Of a stretch of 64,000 nt of DNA, positions 10,571-56,815 are shown in pieces. The DNA comes from Rhizobium sp. SSA_523. GTDB lineage: Bacteria; Pseudomonadota; Alphaproteobacteria; Rhizobiales; Rhizobiaceae. A model generated the notes under the pieces. The model was not told the DNA's origin. It did no database searches and worked only from the letters and a program-made list of their open reading frames with translations. Both the position numbers and the translations under genes were made by a program. The stretch's first letter is position 1. The number at the start of each line of letters is the position of its first letter. The stretch is from assembly GCF_030435705.1 (NCBI RefSeq), contig NZ_CP129381.1:1054001-1118000 (forward strand). Reading direction: 5' to 3'.

Positions 10571-10580
10571 AGGTCATCCC

Positions 10581-13189: not shown

Positions 13190-13256
13190 ACCAGTGCCCG
13201 CCACCTCGCTTGTCACGTCTGGCTCATGATCGGGGGATACGATCCGATGCGGGACC

Positions 13257-13278
13257 GGGGGCAGACCGATGCGCCCCC
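13257..13278. terminator. Hairpin between convergent uxuB and LacI-family gene
   Basis: GGGGGC (13257-13262) pairs with GCCCCC (13273-13278) over a 10-base loop, and flanking GACC/GGTC can extend the stem. It lies in the 94-bp gap between two convergent genes; likely a shared terminator, though no T-run is present. Confidence 0.4.
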
Positions 13279-13283
13279 TTCGG

Positions 13284-39272: not shown

Positions 39273-39343
39273 AGCATCGTCCTCTTTTCATGCTTCAGGC
39301 CTTGCCGGCCCGTCTGACGCCGTTCTGGTTCCTGGCCGGCGCG

Positions 39344-39895: not shown

Positions 39896-39926
39896 GATGT
39901 GGTTTCGCTCGATGATGCTGAAGGCA

Positions 39927-39965
39927 GGGGCAGATGGCGGCGAGCCTGTCGCCGCCATCTGCCCC
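39927..39965 (-). terminator. Long perfect hairpin after the polyol-binding-protein gene
   Basis: 17-bp perfect stem (39927-39943 with 39949-39965) around a 5-base loop, in the gap between the binding-protein and SIS genes. Typical of an attenuator/3' stabiliser that gives excess binding protein; no U-run. Confidence 0.65.
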
Positions 39966-40000
39966 GCTTTGCGCCCGGGAGATGGGAGGCGCGCGGCGGA

Positions 40001-41350
40001 CTATTGGAGAAGCTTCTTCTTGCCGTCGTAATAGCCTTCCTGCTTCAGGATATCCTCCATGCGCGTGCCGATCTCCTTGGCGCCCGCCTCGACGGAGACT
40101 TCGCCCAGCATCATCTTTGAGCCCCATTCGGCGACCACTTCCGAAATGGCCGGCCAGGCAGGGAAGCGCGGACGGAATTCCGGGACGCCCTTCTGCCAGG
40201 AGGCGACCATGGGTTCGACGAACTTGTACTTCGCCTGGATCGCCGGATCCTTGTAGATGGACATGCGGCCGGAAACGCCGCCTGCTTCCACATAGGCCTT
40301 TGCGATATCTTCGGAGGTGGCCCATTGGATGAAGAGCCAGGTTGCCTTCTTCTGCTCTTCGGACGCCTGCGAGGCCACAGCGAGCGAGAAGCCGCCGAGT
40401 GCCGGCAGACGACCCGCCGGCCCGGCCGGCTCCGGCGCAACTGCCAGGCAATCGCCGATCTTCGACGTCGCCGGATCCACCAATGTGCCGTAGAATGCGG
40501 ACCATTCGGTGATCATCGCGACCTGACCCTGTGCCAGCGCATTGACCGCTTCGGCATGGTCGAAACTGACAATGCCGGGCGGCATGTATTTCATCAGCGC
40601 CTGGCGGAAATTCAGCCCGGCCTGGCTTTCCTTGCTCATCAGATTGGACTTGAACTGCGCGTCCAGCAGCGAGCCGCCGAATGGCCACAGGAACCGCATG
40701 AAGCTGTCGGCGGACTGCGTCTCGCCGCGCAGCGACTGCAGGGCGAAAGCATACTGGTTCTTGGAGGCGTCCGTCAGCTTGGGCCCATAGACATTCATCA
40801 CCTCGTCCCAGGTCGCCGGGGGCTTGTCGAAACCTGCCTCCTTGAGCTTGCACGAATTGTAAAACAGCAAACCGGAATAATTGTCGAAGGGCAGGCCGTA
40901 GGTCTTGCCGCCCCAGGAGCCGAACGCATTGAGAAGAAGCGGGAAGAAACCGTCCAGCTTCAGGTTCGGATCGGTGATCGAGGCATCCTTGGTAAAGGTC
41001 TCGATCGGCTCGATCCAACCGTTCTCAGCGAATTCGCCGATCCAGACCAGATCGACCAGGGCCATGGTCAGGTCGCCCTGCGAGGTGAAATTGAGGACCT
41101 CCTTCTCACGCGTATTCTCGTAAGGGACGATCTCGTAATTGACCTTGATGCCGGTTTTCTTTTCGAACTCCGGCAGCAGCTTGATGATCGCGCGGTAGCC
41201 CGGCCGGTCCAGGAAAATGCCGCTGATCTCTGTTCCCTTCAAGGGCTTGGCAGCATCCTCCAGCCAGTCGGCCTGCGCTGCCACCGGCAGGCTTGCCGTC
41301 GCGGCGGCGAGAGCCAGAACGCTTGCGCATACAGTCCACAGACGTTTCAT
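40001..41350 (-). CDS. Polyol/sugar ABC transporter substrate-binding protein
   Basis: 449 residues, CUT1-type periplasmic binding protein (extracellular solute-binding family 1). Sec signal peptide [20 protein letters not shown], cleavage near VAAQA-DW. Segments [29 protein letters not shown] and [15 protein letters not shown] are typical. Aromatic-rich binding cleft; the pentitol enzymes in the operon suggest xylitol, ribitol or D-arabitol. GGAGGAATG precedes the ATG. First gene of the operon; 316 bp upstream hold the promoter region. Confidence 0.94.
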
Positions 41351-41666
41351 TCCATTCCTCCTCAGGTGCCGGCCGCCCTGCGGCAGCCATTGGTGTGGCA
41401 TGCGATTGACGGAGCCTGACCTGTCGCAAGCGGCGATGACCTGGGCAGGCCTCCCCGTTCCTTGGACGCCGTTTCGGCGTCCCCCGACCGAATTACAGGC
41501 ATAGCTTCGCCCTTCGCTGAAGGGCGAAAACATTCAAGATTACAATGCATTAGGTTTTGCGCCTTCCTCCGACAGCGCATTCAATCGATACATCTGTATT
41601 TTTCATTTTGCAATAGCATTTTTCGCGCCGCTATGGTCTTCTTTGGTCAAACGGTAAGGGGGAACC
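41351..41666. other. Divergent promoter region of pentitol operon and inositol-phosphatase-like gene
   Basis: 316 bp without a supported gene. Contains the perfect palindrome at 41506-41528 and an AT-rich stretch near 41530-41640 (for example TTGCAA near 41611 and TATGGT about 18 bases later, a weak candidate promoter on the plus strand). Confidence 0.55.
41506..41528. promoter_or_regulatory. Perfect 23-bp palindrome (candidate SorC-type operator)
   Basis: TTCGCCCTTC-GCT-GAAGGGCGAA: 10-bp arms with full symmetry, 156 bases upstream of the pentitol operon start. No U-run, so an operator or an mRNA 5' hairpin is more likely than a terminator. Confidence 0.5.
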
Positions 41667-42470: not shown

Positions 42471-42521
42471 GGGAACGGCCGGTTGCCCCCTTTGCCAAGG
42501 GCGTGGCAAACAGGCGGAGAC

Positions 42522-43682
42522 ATGCTAGGGTCGATCGAAATGAGCACCATGTCCCCAGACACAGGCAGGCGCGCCGAAGCGCTTGACACCATTGCCGCCG
42601 TACTCCCTGTCGAAAGACGGGACGAACTGGCCAAACTCCTGACGGATCAGGATATCGAGACCCTGCGCCATCTGGTGAACGAAGGCATGGGTGCCAATAC
42701 CTTGCGGGCACTCACTTCAGACCTGGCTTACCTGCAGGCCTGGTGCCTGGCGGCGACGGGATCTCCCCTGCCCTGGCCGGCACCGGAAGCGCTCTTGTTG
42801 AAATTCGTGGCGCACCACCTCTGGAACCCGCAGGAACGGCTCGTGCAGGCGCAGCACGGCATGCCGGCGGAGGTCGAGGACATATTGCGCTCGCGGGGCT
42901 TTCTCAGGGCATTGGGCCCGCATGCGCCGGACACCGTCCGCCGCCGGCTTGCGAGCCTCTCCACGCTCACCAAATGGCGTGGCATGACCGGCGCCTTCGG
43001 CTCGCCGGCCCTTCGATCGGCCATCCGGCTCGCTATCCGCGCGACACCGCGGATGCGAAAGCGCAAGAGTGCGAAGGCCGTGACCGGGGATGTCCTGTCG
43101 CGCCTGCTCGCGACCTGCCGGAGCGACAGCCTGCGCGACAGGCGGGACAGGGCCATTCTGATGGTCGCTTTCGCCTCCGGCGGCCGGCGGCGCAGCGAAA
43201 TCGCCGGCCTGCGCATCGAACAGATCAGGCTGGAGGATCCGATCACAAGCGAGGACGGCAGATCGCTTCCCTCGCTCGCCATTCATCTTGGCCGCACGAA
43301 AACCAGTGGATCGCAGAGCGACGAACTCGTCTATCTCACCGGCAGGCCTGTCGACGCGCTCAATGAGTGGCTCAAGGCGGCGCGGATCACCTCCGGCAGC
43401 GTGTTCCGCGCCATCGATCGCTGGGGCAATCTCTCCCGGCGCGCGCTGGAACCGAAATCGATCAATGACATGATCAAGCAGCGGGCGGTGCTGGCAGGGC
43501 TTGATCCAAAGGACTATTCGGCGCACGGGCTGCGATCGGGCTTCCTCACCGAAGCCGCCAATCGCGGCATTCCGCTGCCCGAAGCGATGGAGCAATCCCG
43601 CCATCGCTCGCTCCAGCAGGCATCCAGCTACTACAACAATGCGCAAAGGCGCAGCGGACGTGCCTCGCGGCTCCTCGACTGA
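42522..43682 (+). CDS. Site-specific tyrosine recombinase (integrase)
   Basis: 386 residues. Core-binding helical domain about 35-175, catalytic domain about 185-386. Active-site set: R223 (GGRRRSEIAG), K260 (LGRTKTSG), H335-x-x-R338 (SAHGLRSG), H361 and Y370 (QQASSYYNN). Stand-alone rhizobial integrases like this occur on chromosomes and plasmids; no excisionase, att repeats or phage genes are visible here. Start uncertain (42483, 42522 or 42540); 42522 has a GGCGGAG site. Confidence 0.88.
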   Translation: MLGSIEMSTMSPDTGRRAEALDTIAAVLPVERRDELAKLLTDQDIETLRHLVNEGMGANTLRALTSDLAYLQAWCLAATGSPLPWPAPEALLLKFVAHHLWNPQERLVQAQHGMPAEVEDILRSRGFLRALGPHAPDTVRRRLASLSTLTKWRGMTGAFGSPALRSAIRLAIRATPRMRKRKSAKAVTGDVLSRLLATCRSDSLRDRRDRAILMVAFASGGRRRSEIAGLRIEQIRLEDPITSEDGRSLPSLAIHLGRTKTSGSQSDELVYLTGRPVDALNEWLKAARITSGSVFRAIDRWGNLSRRALEPKSINDMIKQRAVLAGLDPKDYSAHGLRSGFLTEAANRGIPLPEAMEQSRHRSLQQASSYYNNAQRRSGRASRLLD

Positions 43683-43800: not shown

Positions 43801-44784
43801 TCAGGCGCTGGTGAACAGGTCCGCCGTATAATAATCCTTCGGCGAGAGAGGCTCCTTCACCGTCCCGAATTCCTGGAACATCTTGTTGAAGTCGGTCAGC
43901 CAGTTGTTCACCGTGCCATCCTTGGTGAAACTGTCGAGCTCCTGCGATGTGAGGATCTTGCGGCTTCGGGCAACCTTTGCCGTCACTTCGGCCGGCGCAT
44001 TCAGGAAGTGGGTGGTGATCTCGATCGACCGATCGAGATTGGCGGCCCGGTAATCCATGGCCTTCTTCATGACCCGCAGGAAGGACTTCACCACATCGGG
44101 CTTTTCCGCCACGATCTCGTTCCGCGCCACGAACGTATTGATGAACGAGGTCTGCGGATAGAAATCCTGGTTGGAGGCAAGCTCCTTCATGTCCGGCACG
44201 CGCGGCTTGATCGTGTCGATCAGCGGGTACCAGATTCCCGCGGCATCGATCTGCTTGGACGTGAAGGCGGCAACCACGGTGGACGGATCCATCGGCACCA
44301 CTTCGATATCCTTGATCGACATGCCGGCTTTGGTCAGCGCCATGCGCAAGATCATGTCACCGGATGTGCCTTGCGGAACGCCGACCTTCTTGCCCTTGAG
44401 GTCCGTGATGGAATTGATGCCGGCCTGCGCGATCACCCGGTCAGAAAAGCCGATGTCGTTGACGCCGATCACCTTCGCCTTGCCGCTGGCCGGGAGCCAG
44501 AGGGCGCCGGGGCCGATCGTGCCGAAGTTCAGACTTCCAGCGCCCATGGCCTGGATCTGGATCGGCCCGTTGGTGAAGACCTTGACGGAAGGGGTAATGC
44601 CTTCCGCCTCCCAGAGCTTCTGCTCCTGCGCGATGGCCAGCACGCTGGCATTCGGGAAGTCGGCAATGTAGCCGATCGTCATATCAGCGGATTGTGCCAG
44701 CGCCCGCCCGCCAATGGCAAAGGTGCTTGCGGCCGTCATGGCCGCCGTCGTCTTCATAAGGTCTCGTCTCGTCAGCATGTTCAT
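43801..44784 (-). CDS. NitT/TauT-type ABC substrate-binding protein
   Basis: 327 residues, SsuA/TauA-like periplasmic receptor for sulfonates, nitrate or related anions. Twin-arginine signal (LTRRDLMK, then a hydrophobic stretch ending ALAQS), so probably exported folded. Family features: MTIGYIADFPNASVLAIAQEQKLWEAEGI, LKGKKVGVPQGTSGDMILRMAL. Last of four minus-strand genes with ATPase, permease and sulfatase genes upstream; a sulfate ester or sulfonate ligand is inferred. Confidence 0.9.
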   Translation of the reverse strand: MNMLTRRDLMKTTAAMTAASTFAIGGRALAQSADMTIGYIADFPNASVLAIAQEQKLWEAEGITPSVKVFTNGPIQIQAMGAGSLNFGTIGPGALWLPASGKAKVIGVNDIGFSDRVIAQAGINSITDLKGKKVGVPQGTSGDMILRMALTKAGMSIKDIEVVPMDPSTVVAAFTSKQIDAAGIWYPLIDTIKPRVPDMKELASNQDFYPQTSFINTFVARNEIVAEKPDVVKSFLRVMKKAMDYRAANLDRSIEITTHFLNAPAEVTAKVARSRKILTSQELDSFTKDGTVNNWLTDFNKMFQEFGTVKEPLSPKDYYTADLFTSA

Positions 44785-44816
44785 TCCTCCTCTAGACAGC
44801 CGATGAAAGCCAGGTG

Positions 44817-45587
44817 TCAGGCCGCGACCGGGTGATAGACCGATCGCCAGACCTCGTTGCGCAAAGCCGAAAATTCCGTGGATAGACGCATCTCCTCCGT
44901 CCGCGGATAAGGCAGATCGACGGGAACGATCTTGTGCAGCCTTCCCGGTCGGGCAGCCATCACGATGACCCGGCTCGCCAGATAGACCGCTTCGTCGACA
45001 TCATGGGTGATGAACATGACCGTGCGGCGCTCCTGGCTCCATGTGGCGAGAAGCTGATCCTGCAACTGGACGCGGGTCAGCGCGTCGAGCGCGCCGAAAG
45101 GCTCGTCCATCAGCAGGATTTTCGGGTTGACGGCATAGGCGCGGGCAATGGCGCATCGCTGCTTCATCCCGCCCGACAGCGTCTTCGGCAGCGAATCGGA
45201 GAAATCGCTCAAGCCGACGAGGCGGATGAAATGATCCGCGATCCTGCGGCGCTCGGCGCGGGGGTGCCCGGCCACCTGCAGCCCGAATTCGACATTCTGG
45301 CGCACCGTCAGCCAGGGAAACAGCGCATACTGCTGGAAAATCACGCCGCGTTCGGGGCCAGGCCCGGAGACCGGCACCTGGTCGACCAGCACCTGCCCGG
45401 CAGTGGGCGCCGTCAATCCGGCCGCGATGTTCATGGCCGTCGATTTGCCGCAACCGGACGGTCCGACAACCGTGATGAACTCGCCATCCTCGATGTCGAG
45501 GTTCAATCCCTGCAGGGCCTGGAATGACGACTGTCCGGCGATGGTGAAGGTCTTCGATACGTTCTGGAATGAAATCTTGGGCGTCAT
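44817..45587 (-). CDS. NitT/TauT-type ABC transporter ATP-binding protein
   Basis: 256 residues, SsuB/TauB-like cassette: Walker [10 protein letters not shown] at 42-50, signature [17 protein letters not shown], Walker [16 protein letters not shown] and switch His in [14 protein letters not shown]. Overlaps the permease gene by 4 bp. Cytoplasmic energiser of the organosulfur-type importer. Confidence 0.94.
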
Positions 45588-46441
45588 AGCTTTTCCTGCC
45601 AGGCGGTCAGCACGGCATCGAGGGCCTGAACGATACGATCCATGGCAAGACCGAGAACGCCGATTGCGATGAGGCTGACGAAGATGGTGGGAAGATCGTA
45701 GTAGAGTTGCGCCTGCTGCATGCGGAAGCCAAGGCCGGACTGGGCGGCGATAAGCTCCGCGGCGACGACGGTGGCCCAGGACGAACCGAGCCCCACCCGC
45801 ACGCCGACCATGATATAGGGCAGCGATGCCGGCACGATGACCCGGCGGAAAATGGTGAAATCATTGGCGCCCAATACGCGCGCCGCATTGATGAGCGTCT
45901 TGTCGACATTGACCACGCCCTGGAAGGTTGCGACGACGCTGGTGAGAAAAGAGGCGAGGAAGATGACGAAGATCTTCGGCGTTTCGTCGATCCCCATCGT
46001 CACGATGGCCAGCGGGATAATGGCCAGCGGTGGAATGGTGCGGAAGAACTGGACATAGGGCTCGATGAGCCCGCGCGCCAGCCAATACCAGCCCATCAGG
46101 AAACCGACCGGGATTGCCACCATGATGCCGAGCGCGAAGCCAGTGAAGACACGCGCCAGGCTGGACAGCGCATCCGTCCATAACAGGCCACTTTCGGCCT
46201 GGATGACGGCCTGCTTCGCAACGGCAAGCGGCGTCGGCAGCCCGACGACGCCTTGGGAGGTGACCAGGGCCCAGAGAAGGATGCCGAGCACGACCGCGGC
46301 AATATTGAGGGCGAACATGCCGAGAGGGCGCGACAGCAGCGATTTCTGCGGCATGGAGGAGGACAGACCGTCGGATGCATCGACGGAGACGATCGTGCCG
46401 CCGTTACGCCCTGCTTTGACAGGATCCTCGCGCATCGTCAT
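45584..46441 (-). CDS. NitT/TauT-type ABC transporter permease
   Basis: 285 residues, SsuC/TauC-like: six membrane helices and EAA loop [36 protein letters not shown]. Overlaps the sulfatase gene upstream (4 bp) and the ATPase gene downstream (4 bp), so all four genes are one transcript. Confidence 0.94.
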
Positions 46442-47874
46442 CTTGCACCTGCCATCACGTCACGCGTGCGGAAATTGGATTCGATCAGCCAGTCGCGCAT
46501 CACGTCAAGCAACTCGCGCTTCTGGTCGGCATAGGCCGGATCGTTCCACAGGTTTCGAACCTCCCCCGGATCTTTCTCCAGATCGAAAAACTGCCCGTCG
46601 GACGACCCCTTGAAATGGACGAGCTTGTAGCGGTCGCTGCGCACCCCGGTCATGAATTCGACGCCGCCGGCCATTGCGACATCGCCGATCTGTTCGCAGA
46701 AAACATGCGGTCGCGGTGTCCAGTCCCGCCCCTCCAGCGCCGGTTTCAGGCTTCGCGCCTCAAAGCTCTTCGGCGGCTCGATCCCCGCATATTCAAGAAT
46801 GGTCGGGCCCAGATCGAAGAGCTGGCACAGGCCCTCGATCACCCGCCCGCCTTCGAACCGGCCCGCGGTGGACCAGATCACCGTCGGAACGCGGGTCACG
46901 ACGTCATACATGGACCATTTCTGGATGAGGCCGTGTTCGCCGAGGCATTCCCCATGATCGGAGGTGAAGATGACAATCGCATCCTCCAGATAGCCGCGGG
47001 CCTGGAGCGAGGCCAGAAGCTCGCCGACCTTCTCATCGATCAACGTTACATTGCCCAAATAATGCGACCAAAGCCGGTGCATCTGGTCTTCCGTGGGCGC
47101 GAGATCCCAGACGACAGAATCGTGGTCGACCTCGACATCATGCTGCCGCTTGTCCTTCAGCTCCTGGTGCAGGCCATCCAGCTCCTCCTGCGTCGGCCTT
47201 GGCAGCGGCAGATCGTTGCGCTCGAGATAGGGTTGCGAGTAGCGCGCCGGGGGATCGAAGGGAGGATGCGGCCCGGGAAAGCCGACCTGCAGGAACAAGG
47301 GCTCTGTCGGCGGATAGGTATCGACCCACCATTTGGCCATGTTGCCGACAAAGGCATCAGAATGCAGCGCCTCGGGAAGCTCCCAGTCGAAACAGCCCAG
47401 GCGCTCGCGATAATCCGCGCGCTGGCGGTATTGCTCGCGCTGCTGCTTGACCAGGCCATTGGCGGCAAGCGCCTTGTCCCATTCGTCGAAATACCAGCGC
47501 CCTTCCATGTAGCGGTCTTTGTTTTCCACCACATACCGCTCGTGAAAGCCGGAATCCGAATTATAGGGAATGGTGTGCATCTTGCCGACATTGACGCAGC
47601 GATACCCTGCATCCCGCAATTGCTCGACCCAAGTTCGCTGCCAGGCCTGGCCATTGGCAAGGACACCCGTCGTATGAGGGTAATAGCCGGTGAACAGGCT
47701 GGCGCGTGAGGGTACGCAGCTCGGCGCGGTGATATGGCAATTAGCCAGCGCCACGCCCTTCTCGACAAGCGCATCGATATTCGGGGTCACTGCATAGGGA
47801 AAGCCGAGAGCGGCGATGGAATCGTAGCGCTGCTGATCCGTGATGATCAAGATGATGTTCGGCCTCTCAGCCAT
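46438..47874 (-). CDS. Type I sulfatase (alkaline phosphatase superfamily)
   Basis: 478 residues, no signal peptide, so cytoplasmic. Maturation motif C53-V-P-S-R57 ([13 protein letters not shown]), where Cys is converted to formylglycine; metal ligands in ITDQQR (D13) and [13 protein letters not shown]. Hydrolyses a sulfate ester to sulfate and an alcohol; the substrate is unknown (choline-sulfatase-like or carbohydrate sulfatase; a phosphonate monoester hydrolase is the main alternative). Coupled to an SsuABC-like importer and near an FGE gene. AGGAGAAG precedes the ATG. Confidence 0.9.
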
Positions 47875-47985
47875 GCCTGCTTCTCCTCCTGCCGCGCAAG
47901 GGCCGACAGCCTCTCCGTTCGACTTCGAACAATCGTGTGCCCATCGTCTTCCGCTTGCCTCTCCCGCAAAACGATGGCACAAAGT

Positions 47986-48025
47986 GAACGTTAACGCAAC
48001 GATCACTTTCGCCCGTTCTAACGTT
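47986..48025. promoter_or_regulatory. Candidate LacI operator pair (two AACGTT cores)
   Basis: AACGTT at 47987-47992 and at 48020-48025, centres 33 bp apart (about three helical turns), each with partial flanking symmetry. They lie in the divergent region between the sulfatase/ABC operon and the LacI-family gene starting at 48034. Moderate to low certainty. Confidence 0.4.
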
Positions 48026-48033
48026 TGGAATAG

Positions 48034-49065
48034 ATGATGCGCCAGAGGGAAAAAGACGGCAAAATCGTGCCCACGCTGGCCTCCATCGCCGAACGGGTTG
48101 GCGTCTCGGTCAACACCGTGTCACGGGCAATGCGCGCGCCGAAAACTGTGCGGGCGGAGCTGCGCCGACAGATCAACGAGGCGATGGAGGAACTGAATTA
48201 CGTTCCGAACCGGCTGGCAGGCGGCCTCTCGGGGACTCGCTCCGACATCGTCGGCGTTGTCGTGACCTCTCTCTATTACTCCGAATTCGCAAGCATCATC
48301 GATGGGCTCCAATCGGCATTGCTGGAGCACGATCTGCAGGTCATGCTCGCCAATACGCGCTATGATGCGGCGCAGGAATTGCGGCTCGTTCGCTCGATCC
48401 TCAGCTGGCGCCCGGCGGCCATGGCCATTATCGGCGTGGATCACCCGCCGAAGGTGGTTGAACTGCTCCAGGCCTCCGGCGTCCCGATCATCGAAATGTG
48501 GGATACCGGCGGGGCTGTCATCGACACCGCCGTCGGCTTCGATCACCGGCGGGTCGGCTTCACCCAGGCGCAACACCTGATCGCGAAGGGCTACAGGCGT
48601 CTGGCCTTTGTCGGCAGCCTGCGCGAGAACGACAAGCGGGCGCAGAAGCGGCTACAGGGGGCGCAGGAGGCCGTCCTTTCACACGGACTGCCCCCGATGG
48701 TCTGCCATACGGCACAGATGGGAGGGAGCCCGGAGCTTGGGGAGCGGCTGGCAGCCGAAGTGATGCAAGAGGAGCCGCAGATCGACGCGATCGTGTGCAA
48801 CAGCGACGTCGTCGCGTTCGGCGTCCTGCGCAGCCTGAAGCGGCTTGGCCTGCATGTGCCGGAGGATGTCGGCGTCATCGCGTTCGGCGACAATGAGGCG
48901 GCCGCCTGCGTCTCGCCCTCGCTCACCACCGTGCGGCCCGCCCGCGAGCAGATCGGACGCCTGACGGCCGACGCGATCCTGTCACGCATCAATGGCGCAG
49001 CGCCCTTTACCGCGAGCGTGGACTGGACGCTCATGCAACGCGACAGCACGAACCGGGCCTCGTGA
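48034..49065 (+). CDS. LacI-family transcriptional regulator (GntR-gluconate type)
   Basis: 343 residues: helix-turn-helix (TLASIAERVGVSVNTVSRAM), hinge VPNRLAGGLSGTRS and a sugar-binding-type effector domain (about 68-340; VVVTSLYYSEFASIIDGLQ). It is divergent from the sulfatase/SsuABC-like operon with candidate operators between, so it likely represses it. Two ATGs in tandem (48034 and 48037). The effector may be the desulfated sugar or the sulfate ester (inference). Confidence 0.93.
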   Translation: MMRQREKDGKIVPTLASIAERVGVSVNTVSRAMRAPKTVRAELRRQINEAMEELNYVPNRLAGGLSGTRSDIVGVVVTSLYYSEFASIIDGLQSALLEHDLQVMLANTRYDAAQELRLVRSILSWRPAAMAIIGVDHPPKVVELLQASGVPIIEMWDTGGAVIDTAVGFDHRRVGFTQAQHLIAKGYRRLAFVGSLRENDKRAQKRLQGAQEAVLSHGLPPMVCHTAQMGGSPELGERLAAEVMQEEPQIDAIVCNSDVVAFGVLRSLKRLGLHVPEDVGVIAFGDNEAAACVSPSLTTVRPAREQIGRLTADAILSRINGAAPFTASVDWTLMQRDSTNRAS

Positions 49066-49080
49066 CGTTTTGTTTTGACC

Positions 49081-50580
49081 CTAGCCCTGCCCGCCTTGTC
49101 TGGCCTGATTCTGCGGGGTCCGGCCGGAGCCTGGACCAAGCTGCATGCTGGCGAGCGTCCAGCCTTGCGTCTTCAACGCGCTCCGGATCCGCCATTTCAG
49201 GATCTCGTCGATCAGCTCCCGGCGTATCGACTGATGGGCAGGATCATCCCAGAGGTTCGCGCGTTCCTGCGGGTCGTCCTGCATGTCGAACAGCTGGCCC
49301 TCGGCACTGTCGACGAAATGGACAAGCTTGTAGCGGTGGCTGCGCACCATTGTCATGAAGGCGGCGCCATCGAAGATCCGGTCGCCGGCATGTTCGGAAA
49401 ACACAAAGCGCCGCGGTTCGCACGCCTCTCCTTGCAGATAGGGCTTCAAGGATTGCGCCTCCATCCAGTCCGGCACCGGAAGCTCCGCCAGTTCCAGAAT
49501 GGTCGGGGCGAAATCGAACAGCGAGACCAGGTCCTCCACCACATAGCCGGAGGCGACCCGGCCCGGTGCCCAGACAATTGCCGGCACCCGGACGCTTTCC
49601 TCATACATCGACCATTTCTGGCTATGTCCGTGATCGTTCAGGCTGTCGCCATGGTCGGAGGTGAAGATGAAGATCGTGTCTTCCAGAACGCCGCGTCGCT
49701 CGACCGCCTCGATCAGTCTGGCCATCTGCGCGTCGATCATCGACACATTGGCGAAATAATGCTGGCGCTGCCGGCGCAGTTGCTCCCTGGTCGGGTTCGG
49801 CAGATGCACCACCGCATCGTGATCGACCGAAAGATGCTGCTCGCGCAATCGTCGCAAGGCTGCCGGCTGGGCGGCGATATCCTCATCGCTCAATATGGGT
49901 TCGGGAAGATCCGCATCGGCATACATGTCGAGATAATCCTGCGTCGGATCATAGGGAGGATGCGGACCGGGAATGCCGATCTGCAGGAAGAAGGGTTCGG
50001 TGCCGGTATAGGAGTCCAGCCACATCCGGGCGAAGTCGGGCACGAAATTATCCGCATGCAGATCGGCAGGCAGTTCCCAGACGAAGGCGCCCAGAGCGCT
50101 GCGGTAATCCTCACGACGCCGATAAGTGACGCGGCTCGGTTTTTCGAAACCACGCGCCCAGATCGCCTTGTCCCAATGGTCCAGAAAGAATGGCAGACGT
50201 GCCGTCGCCCGGTCCTTGTTCTCCACCACGTGGCGCTCGTGGAAGCCGAATGAATCTTCGAAAGGCGACGTGTGCATCTTGCCGACATTGACGCAGCGAT
50301 AGCCGGCTTCCGCCAGCAGCTGGACCCAGCTGAAGGCCCAGGGTTCGTCATTGCGGAAGACGCCGTTGGTGTGGGGATAGACACCGGTAAAGAGACTGGC
50401 CCGAGACGGCGCACAAGAGGGCGAGGTGACATAGGTCCGGCGAAAATAGGTGCCCTCCCGCACCATGCGATCCAGCGTCGGCGTTTTCATGTAGGGAAAA
50501 CCGCCTGCGGCAATCGTGTCGTAACGCTGCTGATCGGTGATCACGAACACGATGTTCGGTCGCTTCTGGGTCTGGTTCAC
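49081..50580 (-). CDS. Type I sulfatase, second copy
   Basis: 499 residues, cytoplasmic, with the FGE motif C56-A-P-S-R60 ([21 protein letters not shown]), VITDQQR and FTSDHGDSLNDHGHSQKWSMYEES. It shares most motifs with the sulfatase at 46438 (GKMHT, FHERxVVENKD, PGPHPP) but is clearly diverged, so a different or related sulfate ester is likely. GTG start with AGGGAGAG upstream. Cotranscribed with the LacI-family regulator at 50625. A Gly/Gln-rich C-terminal tail (LGPGSGRTPQNQARQGGQG) is extra. Confidence 0.9.
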   Translation of the reverse strand: MNQTQKRPNIVFVITDQQRYDTIAAGGFPYMKTPTLDRMVREGTYFRRTYVTSPSCAPSRASLFTGVYPHTNGVFRNDEPWAFSWVQLLAEAGYRCVNVGKMHTSPFEDSFGFHERHVVENKDRATARLPFFLDHWDKAIWARGFEKPSRVTYRRREDYRSALGAFVWELPADLHADNFVPDFARMWLDSYTGTEPFFLQIGIPGPHPPYDPTQDYLDMYADADLPEPILSDEDIAAQPAALRRLREQHLSVDHDAVVHLPNPTREQLRRQRQHYFANVSMIDAQMARLIEAVERRGVLEDTIFIFTSDHGDSLNDHGHSQKWSMYEESVRVPAIVWAPGRVASGYVVEDLVSLFDFAPTILELAELPVPDWMEAQSLKPYLQGEACEPRRFVFSEHAGDRIFDGAAFMTMVRSHRYKLVHFVDSAEGQLFDMQDDPQERANLWDDPAHQSIRRELIDEILKWRIRSALKTQGWTLASMQLGPGSGRTPQNQARQGGQG

Positions 50581-50624
50581 CTGTCTCTCCCTGCTATGCC
50601 GTTCCGTGACGTCCTGCCTGGTCT

Positions 50625-51632
50625 CTATCCGGAGGCGCGGACAATATGCTCGAAGCCGAGATTGATCGATTCCGGGCTACCCTCGCCGCGCACCCGTTGC
50701 AGCAGAAGCTCGCCCGCCTTGCGGCCGATCTCGCGATCGGGGGGCCGGACCGAACTCAGCGAGGGCCAAAGCGTTGCGGAAAAATCGAAATCGCCATAGC
50801 CGCAGAGCCTGATATCCTCCGGAACGCGGAGGGACAGACGCTGGGCCTGCGACAAGGCGCCGAGGCAGACCAGATCGTTGGAACAGAAAAGGGCCTGGGG
50901 CGGCTCGGGCCGCGCCATCAACTCTGCACACCCTCTGGCTCCGGCCGCTGCGGAGGCACGCTCCGCCAGGGTGAATTCGGCAAGATGCGCCCCTGCTTCG
51001 TCCACCGCCTCCCGAAAGCCGCGGGCGCGATCGGCGGCGCGGCCATCTCCCGGCACAGCCACCAGCACCTGCGCTAAATGCCGGATGCCGAGAGCCAGGA
51101 AATGGCGCGCCACCATGCGGCCCACCGCCAGATGGGAAAAGCCGATGGCACTATCCATGGCAGCATCGACCTGATCCCCCACTTCGACAAGCGGCAGCCC
51201 ATCTTCCAGAAGGACCCGCAGGCTGCCGCGGCTATGATGGCGGCCAACCAGAACCAGGCCCGCCGGCGACCAGGAGAGCAGGGATTTGACCAGTTCCTCC
51301 TCGCGCTGCAGATCATAATCGCTGGCCCCAAGCATGACCTGATAGCCGCCCGCGTTCAAGACGGCGGTCAACTCTTCCAGCATCAGCGCAAAGACGGAAT
51401 TGTTCAGCGTCGGTACGATCACGCCGATCGTTCTGCTGCGGGATGCGGCGAGACTGCCGGCCAGGACATTCGGAACGTAGGCGAGTTGGCGCGCCGCCTC
51501 AGCGACCCGCTGTCGAACCGTCGGGGAGACCAAGTCGGGCTCGTTATAGACCCGTGACACCGTCGTCAGAGATACGCCGGCCGCACGGGCGACATCTGCC
51601 ATTTTCGGCCGGCGCGACAAGGTTGACCTCAT
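50625..51632 (-). CDS. LacI-family transcriptional regulator
   Basis: 335 residues: helix-turn-helix (KMADVARAAGVSLTTVSRVYN), hinge YVPNVLAGSLAASRS and periplasmic-binding-protein-like domain. Followed at 44 bp by the second sulfatase gene. Two near-identical palindromes TGAAA-NCG-CTTTCA-type upstream suggest autoregulation of this regulator/sulfatase operon. Confidence 0.93.
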   Translation of the reverse strand: MRSTLSRRPKMADVARAAGVSLTTVSRVYNEPDLVSPTVRQRVAEAARQLAYVPNVLAGSLAASRSRTIGVIVPTLNNSVFALMLEELTAVLNAGGYQVMLGASDYDLQREEELVKSLLSWSPAGLVLVGRHHSRGSLRVLLEDGLPLVEVGDQVDAAMDSAIGFSHLAVGRMVARHFLALGIRHLAQVLVAVPGDGRAADRARGFREAVDEAGAHLAEFTLAERASAAAGARGCAELMARPEPPQALFCSNDLVCLGALSQAQRLSLRVPEDIRLCGYGDFDFSATLWPSLSSVRPPDREIGRKAGELLLQRVRGEGSPESINLGFEHIVRASG

Positions 51633-51646
51633 GTGGATCCGATTTC

Positions 51647-51660
51647 TGAAAACGCTTTCA
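51647..51660. promoter_or_regulatory. LacI-type operator 1
   Basis: TGAAAACGCTTTCA, one mismatch from perfect symmetry, 15 bases upstream of the regulator start at 51632. LacI/PurR/RafR-type design with central CG. Confidence 0.65.
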
Positions 51661-51723
51661 TAACCGAAAATGCAATGGCTTCTCTTTTAAGTCAAGCCAC
51701 TGAAACAAGGTGGCGAGCTTCGA

Positions 51724-51737
51724 TGAAAGCGCTTTCA
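51724..51737. promoter_or_regulatory. LacI-type operator 2
   Basis: TGAAAGCGCTTTCA, perfectly palindromic, same sequence class as operator 1, centres 77 bp apart. Could support looping or flank the promoter of the regulator/sulfatase operon. Confidence 0.65.
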
Positions 51738-51798
51738 GCCATCGGCCTGCTGGATGGTTCCAGTCATTCAACAGGGCGGCCGGCGTAACAGATCCGGC

Positions 51799-52833
51799 CT
51801 AGGCAGGGTGACGATCATAGGCGACGCGAAACCCTGTATTGCTGGAGGCACTGTCGGCGGACAAAGCCATGCGAGCGGCAATGCGGTATCTGTAGCAATA
51901 GCTCTTGTGGCACAGGAAGGAGCCGCCTTTCAGCACCTTGTCCCTGCTCTTGCGGGCAGCCTCATTGCGCAGTTTGGCCCGCCGCGACAGGGAGCGGATG
52001 CGGAACGCATCGCCCGTCCATTCCCAGACATTGCCGCTGAGATTGTAGAAGCCCTGCTCTGTCGGCACGAAACTGCGGACAGGTGCTGTGCCATAATAGC
52101 CGTCTGCGAGGCTATTATGCTGCGGGAAACGTCCCTGCCAGATATTGCACAGGATCGTCTCATCCGTCGGCTCTTCATTGCCCCAGGGAAAGCGCCGGCG
52201 CTGGTTGCCGCCGCGCGCTGCATGCTCCCACTCGGCTTCCGTCGGCAGACGGCCGCCCACCCAGGCGCAAAAGGCGAGCGCATCATGATAGGAGACCTGG
52301 GTCACGGGATGATCCATGCGAGTCTCGATCGAGCTGCCCGGCCCCTCCGGGGCATGCCAGGTCGCTCCGTCAACGCGCGCCCACCAGGGCGTCTGCGCGA
52401 CATTCTGCGCCACCAGGGCCTTGTCTGCGAGAAGACCAGTGAAGACGGCCGCGCAGCCGAAACGTTCCGCTTCCGTGACATAACCGGTGTCGCGCACAAA
52501 TTCCGCAAAACGGGCATTGGTGACCGTTTCCGCTTCCAGATGAAAATCGGCCAGGACGACTTTTCGCTCCGGCCCCTCCCCGTCGACGGAAAGGACGGGT
52601 TCATCTGTGCCGACATAGCTCTCACCGCCTTTCACGGCGATGACGGTGCCGGCCCTGCCGCGCATGTCGGCAAACGGAGCCATCGGCTTCTGCCCGGCGT
52701 CTGCCGTTTCGCTTTGCCCGCTACCGTCCGCATTGCGACTGACTGCCGAACAGCATCCACTCATCTCGTCGATCCCATTTGTCTGGCGAACCGCTCTGCG
52801 AGCGGCCGTTGTCTCGTGGTCTGATTCTGACAT
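51799..52833 (-). CDS. Formylglycine-generating enzyme (sulfatase maturation, FGE/SUMF1 type)
   Basis: 344 residues. Converts the motif cysteine of type I sulfatases to formylglycine using O2. FGE hallmarks: VTQVSYHDALAFCAW, GGRLPTEAEWEHAARGG, GNVWEWTGD and the catalytic cysteine pair C308 and C313 (GSFLCHKSYC) with YRYRIAARM and SSNTGFRVA, as in human SUMF1. The first about 60 residues are low-complexity with Cys-Cys at 27-28 (extra tail). GGGAGGGG precedes the ATG at 52833. Strong functional link to the two nearby sulfatases. Confidence 0.95.
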   Translation of the reverse strand: MSESDHETTAARRAVRQTNGIDEMSGCCSAVSRNADGSGQSETADAGQKPMAPFADMRGRAGTVIAVKGGESYVGTDEPVLSVDGEGPERKVVLADFHLEAETVTNARFAEFVRDTGYVTEAERFGCAAVFTGLLADKALVAQNVAQTPWWARVDGATWHAPEGPGSSIETRMDHPVTQVSYHDALAFCAWVGGRLPTEAEWEHAARGGNQRRRFPWGNEEPTDETILCNIWQGRFPQHNSLADGYYGTAPVRSFVPTEQGFYNLSGNVWEWTGDAFRIRSLSRRAKLRNEAARKSRDKVLKGGSFLCHKSYCYRYRIAARMALSADSASSNTGFRVAYDRHPA

Positions 52834-52948: not shown

Positions 52949-53605
52949 TCAGCGCTTGGCCAGCAACTGGATCAGATCCTCCCTGACGCTGCCGATGTGA
53001 TCGGCCAGAAGCGCGCAGGCCTGATCGAACTGCCCCTGGCGCAGCAGGGCAATCAGCTGCGCATGTTCCGCCATGGCCTTGGCCATTGCCTCGCCGCTCG
53101 ATAGCTGCAGGCGCGTGTAGCGGTCGCTGGTCTGCAGCAGGGAGGCGACGATCTGCTGGCTGCGCGGCATGTCCGCCCGGTGATACATGGCCATATGCAG
53201 GTCCGCGTTCAGCCGGCCGTAATCATGCACCTGGCCTGCGGCAATCGCCTTTTCATAATCCGCCTGCTTCTCGTTCAGCGCCGCCAGGTCTTCTTTGGTC
53301 AGCAAAGGCGCCGATTTGCGGAGCAGGCGCGGCTCAAGCAGAATGCGCAGATCGAAGACGTCGTCGATCTCGGCCGGAGACAGAGCCGACACCACGGCGC
53401 CCTTCTGAGGCAGGATCTTCACCAGGCCCTCGGCCTCCAGCTGAAACAGCACCTCGCGCACCGGGATCCGGCTGACGCCATAGGCTTCGGCCAGCGCCTC
53501 CTGGCGCAGTTGCGTTCCCGCAGCGTATTGGCCCGACAGGATAGCCTGGCGGATTTCGTCGATCAGCGCCCCCGAAAGGGTCTTGTGTCGCAGCGTCGGT
53601 TTCAT
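52949..53605 (-). CDS. GntR/FCD-family transcriptional regulator
   Basis: 218 residues, single winged helix (LRQEALAEAYGVSRIPVREVLFQLEAEGLV) and FCD domain (about 75-215). Divergent from the TRAP transporter operon at 53697, with a perfect TGTATACA-core palindrome in the shared promoter, so it is the probable repressor of that operon. The ATG at 53605 is the first consistent start. Confidence 0.93.
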   Translation of the reverse strand: MKPTLRHKTLSGALIDEIRQAILSGQYAAGTQLRQEALAEAYGVSRIPVREVLFQLEAEGLVKILPQKGAVVSALSPAEIDDVFDLRILLEPRLLRKSAPLLTKEDLAALNEKQADYEKAIAAGQVHDYGRLNADLHMAMYHRADMPRSQQIVASLLQTSDRYTRLQLSSGEAMAKAMAEHAQLIALLRQGQFDQACALLADHIGSVREDLIQLLAKR

Positions 53606-53640
53606 GGCATCCAGCTACACCAAATTCGTCAAAAAACCAG

Positions 53641-53670
53641 TTGACTCGAAAAATGTATACATTCTACATT
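53641..53670 (+). promoter_or_regulatory. Overlapping promoters and GntR operator of TRAP operon
   Basis: Plus strand: TTGACT (53641-53646) and CTACAT/TACATT about 17-18 bases later. Minus strand: a perfect TATAAT with TGTG in front (plus-strand ATTATA at 53668-53673). The operator palindrome AATGTATACATT (53652-53663) lies between the plus-strand elements. Confidence 0.5.
53652..53663. promoter_or_regulatory. GntR operator, perfect 12-bp palindrome
   Basis: AATGTATACATT, a TGTATACA-core site typical of FadR/VanR-subfamily GntR regulators, in the divergent promoter of the GntR and dctQ genes. Confidence 0.65.
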
Positions 53671-53696
53671 ATACACAACAAAAGGGGAAGCAGAGA

Positions 53697-54323
53697 ATGA
53701 CCAATCACGGCTCCACGGGGCGATCAGGAGGATCGCCCTCCCTGCCGGCGCGAGGGCTGATTGCCCTGTCCGAAGGGGTTCTGGCACTGGAAAAACTGGT
53801 TGTGGGAGGGTTCATGGCACTGCTGCTCGGATTGATCCTCATCAACGTCATCACGCGCTACGCCGGCGCGCCGCTCTACTGGGTCGACGAAGCAGCGGTC
53901 TACAGCACCGTCTGGCTGACCTTTATCGGCGGCTCGGCCCTCACCAGACTGCGGCTCGATTTCGCGGTCACACTGCTCAGCGAAAGACTGTCTCAACGTC
54001 ACGCGGAACGGCTGCAAATGCTGGCCACCTTCATCGCCTTTCTCTTCTCCCTGTCGCTCGTCGTCATGTGCTGGAACTGGATGGACCCGCTCGGCATTGC
54101 CGCCGCCGGCTTCGACGCCCGCGAATATGCAAGCGAGAGCTTCAACTTCCTCTACACGGAGCATACCCAGACGCTGAACTGGCCGACCTGGATTGTCAGC
54201 CTGGTCGTGCCGCTATTTGCCGTCACCATGTCGCTTCATACCGCCGCCAATCTGGTCGAGGAGATGGGGCTTGTGCCGAAGAAGGCGCGGGCCGGCTTCA
54301 GCGCGGCGGAAGGGGTGAACTGA
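53697..54323 (+). CDS. TRAP transporter small permease, DctQ family
   Basis: 208 residues, four membrane helices, with the segment VDEAAVYSTVWLTFIGGSALTR typical of DctQ. First gene of the second TRAP operon (order Q-M-P). The ATG at 53697 follows GGGGAAGCAGAGA. The N-terminal ~20 residues are Gly/Ser-rich and hydrophilic. Confidence 0.93.
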   Translation: MTNHGSTGRSGGSPSLPARGLIALSEGVLALEKLVVGGFMALLLGLILINVITRYAGAPLYWVDEAAVYSTVWLTFIGGSALTRLRLDFAVTLLSERLSQRHAERLQMLATFIAFLFSLSLVVMCWNWMDPLGIAAAGFDAREYASESFNFLYTEHTQTLNWPTWIVSLVVPLFAVTMSLHTAANLVEEMGLVPKKARAGFSAAEGVN

Positions 54324-54324
54324 G

Positions 54325-55593
54325 ATGATCACGACTGCAGCCTTCCTCGCCGTGATGCTCGTCGGCGTTCCGATCGGTCTCTGCCTCTGCATCGCGGCGG
54401 CGATCTACATCTGGGCCACGGGCAATACGCTGCTGTTCCAGAGCTTTCCCGTCCAGCTTTTCGGCGGTGTCGACAATTACGGCCTGATCTCCATCCCGCT
54501 TTTCGTGCTGATTGGTGAAGTGATGAATGGCGGCGGCATTACCCGGCGCATCATCGACATGACCATGGCCATGATCGGCGCGATGAAGGGCGGTCTCGCT
54601 TATGTCAACCTGATCGCCAACATGTTCGTCTCGTCCATCCTCGGCTCGGCCACCGCGCAGGTCGCCATCATGGCGCAGATGATGGTGCCGGAAATGGAAA
54701 AGAAGGGCTATGACAAGACCTTTGCCGCCGGCCTGACGGCCTATGCGGGCATGCTCGGCCCCATCATTCCGCCTTCCATCATGTTTGTCGTCTATTCGGT
54801 TCTGGCGCAGGTCCCGGTTGGCGACATGCTGGCAGCCGGAATGATCCCGGGCGTGCTGCTGACGCTGATCTTCTGCCTCATCATCGCCGGCATGGGCTGG
54901 TTCGTCTATGACTACCCGCGCGGCGAGCGCCGCACCCTTGGCGAACGGGCAAGGATCATCCTCGGCGCACTCCCCACGCTCTCCATTCCGATCATCATCG
55001 TCGGCTCGATCCTTGCCGGCATTGCCAATCCGACGGAAGCGGCTGCCGTGGGCGTCGTCGCCGCAATCCTGGTCGGCCGGTTCTGGATCGGCGAGCTCTC
55101 CCTGGCGCAACTGCCGAAAATGCTGCTGCGCGCCGGCATCTATTCCGCCGTCGTCCTGCTGCTTGTGGCGGCTGCCGCGGTGTTCTCCTGGGTCCTGGTC
55201 TACGGAATGGTGCCGCAGAAAGTCGCGGAATGGGTGCAGACGATCGCTTCTGATCCGATCACCTTCATGCTGCTCGTCAATGTCATCCTGCTGATCATCG
55301 GCACGGTCATCGATGGCGCACCGGGTCTGATCATGACGGTACCGATCCTTCTGCCCATTGCGACGGAGGTCTATGGCATCGATCCGGTCCATTTCGGCGT
55401 CGTCGTCGTCATCAACCTGGTGCTCGGCTTCCTGTCTCCGCCGGTCGGCCTGTGCTTCTTCGTCGCTTCGGCGGTCACGGGAGCCAAGCCCGGCAAGATG
55501 TTCATCGTGACGCTTCCCTTCTTCTTTGCCGCCTGCGGCCTGCTGATCCTGTTGTCGATCTTCCCGTCGATCTCGACCTTCTTCGTCAAATAA
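54325..55593 (+). CDS. TRAP transporter large permease, DctM family
   Basis: 422 residues, about 12 hydrophobic helices; SSILGSATAQVAIMAQMMVPEMEKKGYDK, MLGPIIPPSIMFVVYSVL and LGFLSPPVGLCFFVA. Normal length. Starts 1 base after dctQ; transports with the DctP at 55630. Confidence 0.95.
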   Translation: MITTAAFLAVMLVGVPIGLCLCIAAAIYIWATGNTLLFQSFPVQLFGGVDNYGLISIPLFVLIGEVMNGGGITRRIIDMTMAMIGAMKGGLAYVNLIANMFVSSILGSATAQVAIMAQMMVPEMEKKGYDKTFAAGLTAYAGMLGPIIPPSIMFVVYSVLAQVPVGDMLAAGMIPGVLLTLIFCLIIAGMGWFVYDYPRGERRTLGERARIILGALPTLSIPIIIVGSILAGIANPTEAAAVGVVAAILVGRFWIGELSLAQLPKMLLRAGIYSAVVLLLVAAAAVFSWVLVYGMVPQKVAEWVQTIASDPITFMLLVNVILLIIGTVIDGAPGLIMTVPILLPIATEVYGIDPVHFGVVVVINLVLGFLSPPVGLCFFVASAVTGAKPGKMFIVTLPFFFAACGLLILLSIFPSISTFFVK

Positions 55594-55629
55594 GTGCCAG
55601 AACAACCACAAACTTCAGAGGATGAACGA

Positions 55630-56628
55630 ATGACCCTTTCACGCAGAACCTTTCTTCGCACGGCCTCGCTTGCGACCGCAGGCGCCACGACGCTCTTCCT
55701 GCCGAACATCACCCGGGCGCAGGAGGCCCGGACCTTCCGGCTCGGCATCACCACGCCGCCCGGCCACCCCTGGAACAATGCCGCCCTGAAGGTCGGTGAA
55801 ATGCTGAAGGCCGAGACCAAGGGCCGTCTGGACATCGCCGTCTTCCCGGCCAACCAGCTGGGCACCGAAGCGGCCATGCTGCAGCAGATGCAGGCCGGCT
55901 CGCTGGACTTCGGCTGGATCATGACCGCCGAACTGGGCTCACGCATTCCGTCCATCGCCGCGATCAACGCGCCCTATCTCGTCGATTCGACGGCGAAGGT
56001 CGCCAAGCTCGTCCGCGACCCGCTGGCGATGAAGATGCTCGATGTGCTGCCGAAGGAAACCGGGACCTTGGGCCTTGCCTGGGGCATCACCACCATGCGC
56101 GTCGTCTTCTCCGCCAAGGAGATCGGCGGCCTGGACGATCTGAACGGGATGAAGCTGCGCATCAACACCACCCCAGCCTATCGCGATTTCTACCAGCTGC
56201 TCGGTGCCGCGCCGACGCCGATCCCGACGCCGCAGGTCTTCGACGCCATGTCGAACGGCCAGGTGGATGGGCTTGAAGCCGATCTCGACTTCTCCTGGAA
56301 CCAGCGCTTCGACCGGGTATCGAAGACGATGTTGAAGATGAACGCGATCTTCATGCCCTGCGTTGCCCTGGCATCCGGCCGCGTCTGGAAGGATGTCCCG
56401 GCAGCCGACCGGGAATTGATCACCCGGCTCACCAAGCAGGCGCTGGACGACCAGATCGATGCGACCGTTGCCAATGAGGCGAAGCTGCTGGAAGAGTTCC
56501 GCAAGGCCATTACCGTCAAGGAAGTCCAGGTGGCCGATGCCGGCAAGGTGATCGCCGAATATGACAAGATCTGGATGCCGAAGGCACCGATCCTCGCCGA
56601 TCTGCGCAAATTGGGCGCGACGCTCTAA
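55630..56628 (+). CDS. TRAP transporter solute-binding protein, DctP family
   Basis: 332 residues with a twin-arginine signal (SRRTFLRTASLATAGATTLF), so probably Tat-exported. DctP segments LGITTPPGHPWNNAALKVGEMLKAETKG, LGTEAAMLQQMQAGSLDFG and KLRINTTPAYRDFYQLLGAAPTPIPTPQVFDAM. GAGGATGAACGA precedes the ATG at 55630. Ligand unknown; the DapA-family lyase next door suggests a keto acid or imino acid. Confidence 0.94.
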   Translation: MTLSRRTFLRTASLATAGATTLFLPNITRAQEARTFRLGITTPPGHPWNNAALKVGEMLKAETKGRLDIAVFPANQLGTEAAMLQQMQAGSLDFGWIMTAELGSRIPSIAAINAPYLVDSTAKVAKLVRDPLAMKMLDVLPKETGTLGLAWGITTMRVVFSAKEIGGLDDLNGMKLRINTTPAYRDFYQLLGAAPTPIPTPQVFDAMSNGQVDGLEADLDFSWNQRFDRVSKTMLKMNAIFMPCVALASGRVWKDVPAADRELITRLTKQALDDQIDATVANEAKLLEEFRKAITVKEVQVADAGKVIAEYDKIWMPKAPILADLRKLGATL

Positions 56629-56667
56629 TCGCGACGACCCAAACGCGGCAAATACCACTTCATGCAG

Positions 56668-56696
56668 GAAGGCGCGCCGGTCATTGGCGCGCCTTC
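56668..56696 (+). terminator. Hairpin after the DctP gene
   Basis: 11-bp perfect stem GAAGGCGCGCC/GGCGCGCCTTC, 7-base loop, no U-run. Likely attenuator or mRNA 3' stabiliser between dctP and the lyase gene. Confidence 0.6.
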
Positions 56697-56815
56697 GATC
56701 CGACCAAGGCCACTGCGCACCATGCGGCACCATCCGGCATGGCGCGGCGGGGCCTCCCAACACCCACCGATGGAAGCGGCCACGAAAGGCCGCCCTCTTG
56801 TTCAAGGACGAGACA

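Follow-up and report, generated by a model that had tools for sequence, protein, structure and literature searches.

A recurring rhizobial gene cassette that appears to import organic sulfate esters and cleave them inside the cell, with its own maturase and two LacI-type regulators

In aerobic soils, sulfur esters and sulfonates combined account for about 95% of all sulfur, and how sinorhizobia use them is little known (PMC4053727). The gene clusters described in 2013 from Sinorhizobium medicae, namely cluster III (ssuCBA-atsA-like, Smed_1127-1130) and cluster IV (tauC-ssuCBA-ats-like, Smed_3146-3151), were assigned to the use of ester sulfur, and sulfatase activity was, with few exceptions, higher in S. 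medicae than in S. meliloti nodules, according to the part of that report available to us (PMC4053727). The cluster analyzed here occupies positions 43801-52833 of a 64,000-nucleotide stretch of Rhizobium sp. SSA_523 (the window), itself part of a 1.54 Mb contig in a 5.48 Mb genome (5,475,343 bases), and has the gene order FGE (formylglycine-generating enzyme), LacI2 and sulfB on the reverse strand, LacI1 on the forward strand, and sulfA, ssuC, ssuB and ssuA on the reverse strand (Table 1). Judged from its genes, this small rhizobial block appears to import sulfate-bearing organic compounds, to cleave off the sulfate intracellularly and to switch itself through two sugar-type regulators. The ats clusters of Pseudomonas aeruginosa and P. 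putida (atsRBC with AtsA or AtsK) likewise join an SsuABC-like importer to a single sulfatase and are under sulfate-starvation control through CysB; to our knowledge, an FGE is not part of those clusters.

By gene description, the S. medicae clusters are similar to that of the window in having a rhizobial SsuABC-type importer beside sulfatases and a proposed role in ester-sulfur uptake, and differ from it in that neither an FGE nor a LacI regulator is named in the available part of the report (PMC4053727). Because ssuCBA-sulfatase clusters are already in print, this kind of cluster is known, and the statement of the initial annotation that it knew of no described locus with exactly this arrangement has to be narrowed to the FGE and LacI genes, which the same part of the report does not name for the ssuCBA-arylsulfatase clusters of S. 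medicae. The present cluster is a variant of this known kind by virtue of the FGE gene beside it and of LacI control that has candidate operators of its own. A further comparison is offered by Shinella, another member of the Rhizobiaceae, in which a formylglycine (FGly)-type acesulfame sulfatase (SHIWSC3_PJ0001) amounted to 6.7% of the proteome and an FGE encoded on plasmid pF was found in the proteome, as stated in the accessible portion of the report (PMC11500405). Both organisms have an FGly sulfatase, and in Shinella a LacI gene adjoins the acesulfame sulfatase; plasmid pF encodes a sulfA homologue at 59% identity and an FGE at 52%, and this FGE, judged by its place on pF, is the PF0003 enzyme of the published proteome as it appears in that portion (PMC11500405). 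Shinella differs in that the acesulfame enzyme, whose substrate is known, is 32-33% identical to sulfA and sulfB, and no SsuABC is annotated in the Shinella stretches L068 and L071. An insertion of the IS630 family interrupts the LacI gene that is divergent from the acesulfame sulfatase gene in L071 (Shinella sp. WSC3-e plasmid pJ, 1725-3957); neither LacI nor IS630 occurs in the main text of PMC11500405 as available to us, and lost LacI repression is a possible explanation of the high sulfatase level.

The gene order of the cassette is not due to chance, since it recurs in other genomes. Reference proteins were mapped onto loci from plasmids and genomes, including Rhizobiaceae family genomes, which yielded 19 loci with a sulfA of at least 80% identity (the window, L005, L006, L007, L010-L015, L033, L034, L060-L063 and L072-L074), several of them close kin (L005 and L011 from one species, L034, L073 and L074 from Neorhizobium galegae, L013 and L014 from near-identical isolates). 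In all 19 loci ssuCBA follows sulfA, with an FGE in between in L033, L072 and L063, so that importer and sulfatase genes are linked as in an ats-type cluster and the coupling of the two that had been proposed for the window holds throughout. LacI1 is divergent in 18 loci (not L063), an FGE lies within the fetched stretch in 16, sulfB is found in 14 (not in the fetched stretch of L034, L060, L061, L073 and L074; about 9 kb off in L062 and broken in L007), LacI2 is confined to four (the window, L005, L010 and L011), and a small SDR dehydrogenase gene occurs in nine, not in the window. No flanking gene is shared, at 60% identity, by 164 of the 171 locus pairs, and the window has none in common with any other locus, for which reason the unit mostly behaves as an accessory cassette; the search for conserved synteny suggested initially thus returned a recurring unit with mostly changing flanks. 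The seven sharing pairs comprise L034/L074 and L005/L011 (same species), L006/L007 (a sugar-gene run), L010 with L034 and with L074 (a five-gene block), L015/L033 (two genes) and L006/L062 (a TSUP gene). The five-gene block borders on the FGE in Rhizobium terrae (L010, 180-6536) and on LacI1 in N. galegae (L034/L074), so that one site is seen with and without the FGE-SDR-LacI2-sulfB half; probably this half, from FGE to sulfB, was lost in N. galegae or else gained in R. terrae.

The cassette is present in several Rhizobiaceae species. A family search gave a match at E ≤1e-100, a threshold that also admits sulfB-like genes, in 12 of 297 genomes, five at ≥80% identity, and no match in the four other same-genus genomes listed; a class-wide search of 385 genomes at E ≤1e-190 returned the organism's own genome only. 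Outside the Rhizobiaceae, sulfA relatives at 76-82% identity are named from Roseomonas, Microvirga, Jiella and Pleomorphomonas in a protein search, and others at 52-54% lie on plasmids of Halomontanus, Halosolutus and Halococcus. Base composition (cassette GC content 0.618 versus 0.625 for the window) gives no acquisition signal. The record of L007 (Rhizobium sp. CC-CFT758, 9988-14168) shows neither sulfatase gene intact: sulfA is annotated in pieces and sulfB is unlisted, which may reflect decay or sequencing error. In L063 (G036:C4), importer genes of both the Tct and the SsuABC type accompany sulfA, and a regulator that looks GntR-like by eye takes the place of LacI1; the arrangement is possibly an intermediate one.

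The family-level assignment of every cassette gene is backed by Pfam and NCBIfam profile scans, run in the case of sulfA on the sequence without its first methionine. The two sulfatases are 51% identical, and both have the C-x-P-x-R motif and the active-site residues, including the Lys/His pair, of FGly-dependent S1 sulfatases. The C-x-P-S-R sites reported initially were found intact (CVPSR at C53, CAPSR at C56; PF00884), and ten residues that we take to form the sulfatase active site are present in sulfA (D13, Q14, C53, R57, K98, H100, H203, D306, H307, K319) and in sulfB (D16, Q17, C56, R60, K101, H103, H207, D309, H310, K322), all invariant in alignments of 66 and 61 relatives, respectively, picked from two lists of 120 best relatives. 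The N-termini, inspected by eye, have no visible signal peptide, in agreement with the cytoplasmic location assigned before. The predicted models (predicted local distance difference test scores of 91.1 for sulfA and 89.7 for sulfB) have the same nearest solved fold, 7oz8 (template modeling (TM) score 0.79-0.83, 28% identity), which is BT1918, a 3-O-sulfo-N-acetylglucosamine sulfatase of SulfAtlas subfamily S1_46 according to the parts available of two reports (PMC10154620, PMC10154612). BT1918 differs in being a periplasmic Bacteroides enzyme, and its subfamily and substrate were not transferred to sulfA and sulfB because 28% identity is too low. In a tree of 45 rows the two enzymes fall into two supported clades (98/98 and 96/95). 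An identity as PehA-like phosphonate monoester hydrolases (PMHs) was rejected, model NF045661 giving 187 and 192 bits against a cut-off of 900 and the Lys/His pair of sulfA reading GKMH, as in sulfB, where PMHs have GYTT; PMHs are set apart by SulfAtlas as S1_0, as the available part of its description states (PMC5066984). Choline sulfatase was likewise rejected (184 and 226 bits with TIGR03417, whose cut-off is 433); the S. meliloti enzyme (6fny) belongs to the same superfamily and is the second fold neighbor of sulfB. The data support both enzymes being sulfatases rather than PMHs, as the check on family placement had left to be decided, with the activity itself predicted.

The cassette FGE aligns to formylglycine-generating enzymes, its best PDB matches, with its CHKSYC on their CHRSYC, and combines the FGE domain with the C-x4-C pair of the oxygen-dependent enzymes (PF03781, 238.7 bits), so that both the canonical FGE and the aerobic maturation claimed at the outset are upheld; the anaerobic maturase model TIGR03942, the only maturase model of that type searched, had no match in the genome at E 0.001. 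Four PF00884 sulfatases and three PF03781 proteins are encoded in the genome, and the cassette FGE, 79% identical to that of an N. petrolearium locus, is the only one of the three with the Cys pair. The remaining two sulfatases, encoded about 76 kb away next to a sugar importer of the Ugp type, carry the motifs CMPAR and CGPAR and, given these motifs and the lack of another Cys-pair FGE, may depend on the cassette enzyme. This second sulfatase locus of the genome (L030, 4498-12801; G000:C3, ~1182.5-1190.8 kb) also holds a LysR-like gene, and no FGE was found in it. The C-x4-C pair is present in 16 of 16 FGEs of sulfA loci, as CHKSYC, CHESYC, CAPNYC or CAPTYC. Since three of these 16, in L033, L072 and L063, are of another type (36-39% identity) and at another place, between sulfA and ssuC, the cassette acquired its FGE, or had it replaced, on more than one occasion. 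In L031 (Neorhizobium petrolearium OS53, 5211-37373) seven annotated sulfatase genes lie within ~32 kb with one annotated FGE.

Of the TauABC/SsuABC-type importer originally named, the SsuA assignment stood and the taurine alternative did not: the binding protein exceeds the cut-off of the SsuA-family model TIGR01728 (233.6 versus 163.5 bits) and fails the TauA model TIGR01729 (77.9 versus 304). None of the 19 profile matches of the permease reaches its cut-off, nor does any of the best 25 out of 186 for the ATPase, and the nearest importer matches are of the nitrate, taurine and sulfonate types (for the ATPase, among those best 25). A Tat (twin-arginine translocation)-like signal was seen by eye in ssuA, with Pfam TAT_signal below its cut-off (20.1 versus 22.7). 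The ssuC open reading frame (ORF) overlaps both neighbors, sulfA and ssuB, by 4 bp each, which suggests that sulfA, ssuC and ssuB form one operon; LacI2 and sulfB, 44 bp apart, are probably co-transcribed.

Both regulators carry the LacI domains reported for them (PF00356 and PF13377), and each LacI has its own candidate operator, which is new here. Each combines a helix-turn-helix, a ligand domain and a nearby palindrome with central CG, as LacI-family autoregulators do, binding itself being predicted. The nearest NCBIfam model of LacI1 is the gluconate regulator GntR, below its cut-off. Across 12 loci, the sulfA/LacI1 gap contains a stretch more conserved than its surroundings, and the site GCGTTANCGNTAACTTT (a palindromic core plus extension) is found with at most one mismatch in the gap of 18 of 18 loci with LacI1, the one-mismatch form being identical in the window, L010 and L060, and is absent at up to two mismatches from the six compared loci without LacI1 (L063, L064, L065, L070, L020 and L068). 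Genome-wide, the only match at up to one mismatch is the window's own; four more at two mismatches are noise, given that a backward control gave 8 and 9 matches. The exact 12-base core occurs at one site elsewhere in the genome (4 and 4 for the backward control), a search that misses the window's one-mismatch site. For LacI2, the perfect palindrome TGAAANCGNTTTCA occurs twice in 5,475,343 bases, both times before LacI2, against none for the backward control, and L005, L010 and L011 have one site each of the looser form TGNAANCGNTTNCA before LacI2. TTGACT, a possible -35 element recognized by eye, lies between the two candidate LacI2 operators. A wider LacI regulon was sought genome-wide and not found, the perfect LacI2 site occurring nowhere else and the LacI1 site once at up to one mismatch. 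LacI control as initially proposed is thereby strengthened by the candidate operators, and the sugar product proposed with it stays a suggestion, no proof of it being found in this genome.

We give a probability of about two in three to the reading that this is an accessory cassette which imports small organic sulfate esters and cleaves them. In the periplasm, the SsuA-like protein would bind a small sulfated anion, which SsuBC would carry intact into the cytoplasm. There the co-located FGE would oxidize SulfA C53 and SulfB C56 to formylglycine, and the sulfatases matured in this way would split off sulfate and leave a desulfated alcohol, which is most likely a sugar or polyol. From a single operator in the gap between them, LacI1 would repress the divergent operon sulfA-ssuCBA; LacI2 would repress the operon it forms with sulfB, using two operators that are 77 bp apart. 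The inducer of each unit would be a small molecule of its own, probably the sulfated compound or its product. The units sulfA-ssuCBA and LacI2-sulfB thus seem to be regulated separately and may serve two substrates.

The neighborhoods of relatives bear on what these substrates may be. In L006/L032 and L007 the FGE ends a tight one-strand run joined to the cassette and comprising a sugar importer, a PfkB kinase, a LacD-type aldolase, dehydrogenases, an enolase-superfamily dehydratase and a TauE-type gene. The sulfB-like genes of other lineages stand beside Ugp-type sugar importers in L009, L017, L018, L019 and L066 and near one in L008, with no such importer beside the sulfB-like gene in L016 or L067, and sulfA-like genes (59-71% identity) stand beside a TctA-type permease in four of five loci (L064, L065, L070 and L020; not L068). 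This suggests small sulfated anions, sugars or polyols as substrates. Putative sulfate or anion transporters occur near relatives (TauE/TSUP in L006, L007 and L062; ClC in L062 and L008; SulP in L061). A carbon-harvesting organosulfate system instead of a sulfur-scavenging one is somewhat less likely than not: two sugar-type repressors with private operators would switch on the uptake of sulfated sugars or polyols and their desulfation in the cytoplasm, the sulfate would be surplus, with putative exporters for it in some relatives, and the co-carried maturase would make the cassette workable in any aerobic host entered. As the sugar-gene context lies outside the window's own cassette, the carbon reading can only be suggested.

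Several observations weigh against an import-and-cleave cassette with this regulation. SsuA-family proteins typically bind sulfonates. The cassette contains no enzyme for the desulfated product and no sugar-catabolic enzyme, and no further operator site points to a sugar-catabolic gene, so that the locus, called self-contained initially, is so for import, maturation and cleavage and not for use of the product, for which no enzyme was seen co-regulated elsewhere. All three N. galegae loci have sulfA-ssuCBA without a linked FGE. As LacI2 is present in four of 19 loci and sulfB is missing from five, the two units need not serve one substrate. The 12-base LacI1 core has one match in the window at up to one mismatch, and at least one match was obtained in 24 of 100 window shuffles; the core in the window alone is no better than chance and the case for a LacI1 operator therefore rests on conservation, among 18 related loci, several of them very close to one another. 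A consensus scan gave five promoter-like sites (2.0 expected), all of them outside the two regulatory gaps, and four terminator-like sites (7.2 expected).

The cassette could instead be an ats-type ester-sulfur cluster that scavenges sulfur for sulfate supply, its LacI proteins merely sensing the substrate, as the pairing of ssuCBA with sulfatases in S. medicae clusters III and IV, tied to ester-sulfur use in the part of the report at hand (PMC4053727), and the lack of a carbon-catabolic enzyme would lead one to expect. Two local LacI genes with private candidate operators, the putative sulfate/anion transporters near some relatives (transport being possible in either direction) and the sugar-catabolic run joined to the cassette in L006 and L007 argue against this role, which we regard as rather unlikely. 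An arrangement of two modules sharing one FGE, in which sulfA-ssuCBA-LacI1 handles a small anion and LacI2-sulfB a carbohydrate sulfate taken up by another importer, has close to an even chance. It is consistent with the two supported clades, with the separate candidate operators, with the absence of sulfB from the fetched stretch in five of 19 loci and its distance in L062, and with the importers beside distant relatives, Ugp-type beside or near sulfB-like genes at six loci (not L016 or L067) and TctA-type beside sulfA-like genes in four of five. Against it, 13 of the 14 loci with both sulfA and sulfB hold them in a single gene group (the exception is L062; in L063 sulfB lies beyond ssuA), which favors their joint use in this lineage.

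Two other explanations are far less probable. That the enzymes are PMHs or phosphodiesterases would accord with the PMHs 2w8s and 2vqr among the fold neighbors (TM 0.75-0.82), and is made very improbable by the NF045661 scores, by GKMH in place of GYTT and by a carbohydrate sulfatase as nearest fold. A recently recruited xenobiotic function such as acesulfame hydrolysis, to which the FGly-type sulfatase beside a LacI gene in Shinella, of the same bacterial family, lends some plausibility, is equally hard to credit for a cassette found in several Rhizobiaceae species whose sulfatases are 32-33% identical to the acesulfame enzyme and fall in a separate clade.

The coordinates of the cassette features are collected in Table 1; the FGE ORF is open from 52926, and the end coordinate 52833 is that of a methionine.

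Table 1 Features of the cassette and its candidate operators in the window.
Feature	Position	Strand	Details
ssuA-like periplasmic substrate-binding protein	43801..44784	-	327 aa, Tat-like signal MNMLTRRDLMKTTAA; TIGR01728 SsuA_fam
ssuB-like ABC ATPase	44817..45587	-	256 aa; PF00005
ssuC-like permease	45584..46441	-	285 aa as ORF, real start possibly further in; PF00528
sulfA, FGly-type S1 sulfatase	46438..47874	-	478 aa, CVPSR, C53; PF00884 164.5 bits
Candidate LacI1 operator GCGTTAACGTTCACTTT	47981..47997	-	divergent gap; 1 mismatch to GCGTTANCGNTAACTTT
LacI1, LacI-family regulator divergent from sulfA	48034..49065	+	PF00356, PF13377
sulfB, FGly-type S1 sulfatase, sulfA paralogue	49081..50580	-	499 aa, CAPSR, C56; PF00884 181.2 bits
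LacI2, LacI-family regulator	50625..51632	-	PF00356, PF13377
Candidate LacI2 operator 1, TGAAAACGCTTTCA	51647..51660	.	perfect TGAAANCGNTTTCA site
Candidate LacI2 operator 2, TGAAAGCGCTTTCA	51724..51737	.	perfect TGAAANCGNTTTCA site, 77 bp from operator 1
FGE, oxygen-dependent formylglycine-generating enzyme, CHKSYC	51799..52833	-	PF03781 238.7 bits

Around the cassette, a tyrosine-recombinase-like gene (42483-43682, forward strand, by eye) adjoins the ssuA end and, at 60% identity, has no counterpart among the flanking genes of the 18 further loci. Genes recognized by eye as those of a sugar ABC importer lie, with a SIS-domain protein gene, at 37552-41353 on the reverse strand, ~2.4 kb from the cassette, with no link to it seen. 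At 52949-57787 a GntR/FCD regulator is divergent from an apparent TRAP transporter and a dihydrodipicolinate-synthase-like gene (the latter two by eye), forming a separate neighbor locus.

The cassette is real, recurring and functionally coherent, and is partly new in regulation and packaging; the parts are of known kinds, and what seems to make a new variant of them is the way they are arranged and the cassette's own DNA switches. As a recurring unit with maturase and candidate operators, it is directly testable through two inducers, two operator sets and two sulfatases. If induction by a sulfated sugar, and not by sulfur starvation, is true, ester sulfates would be carbon food in soil bacteria.

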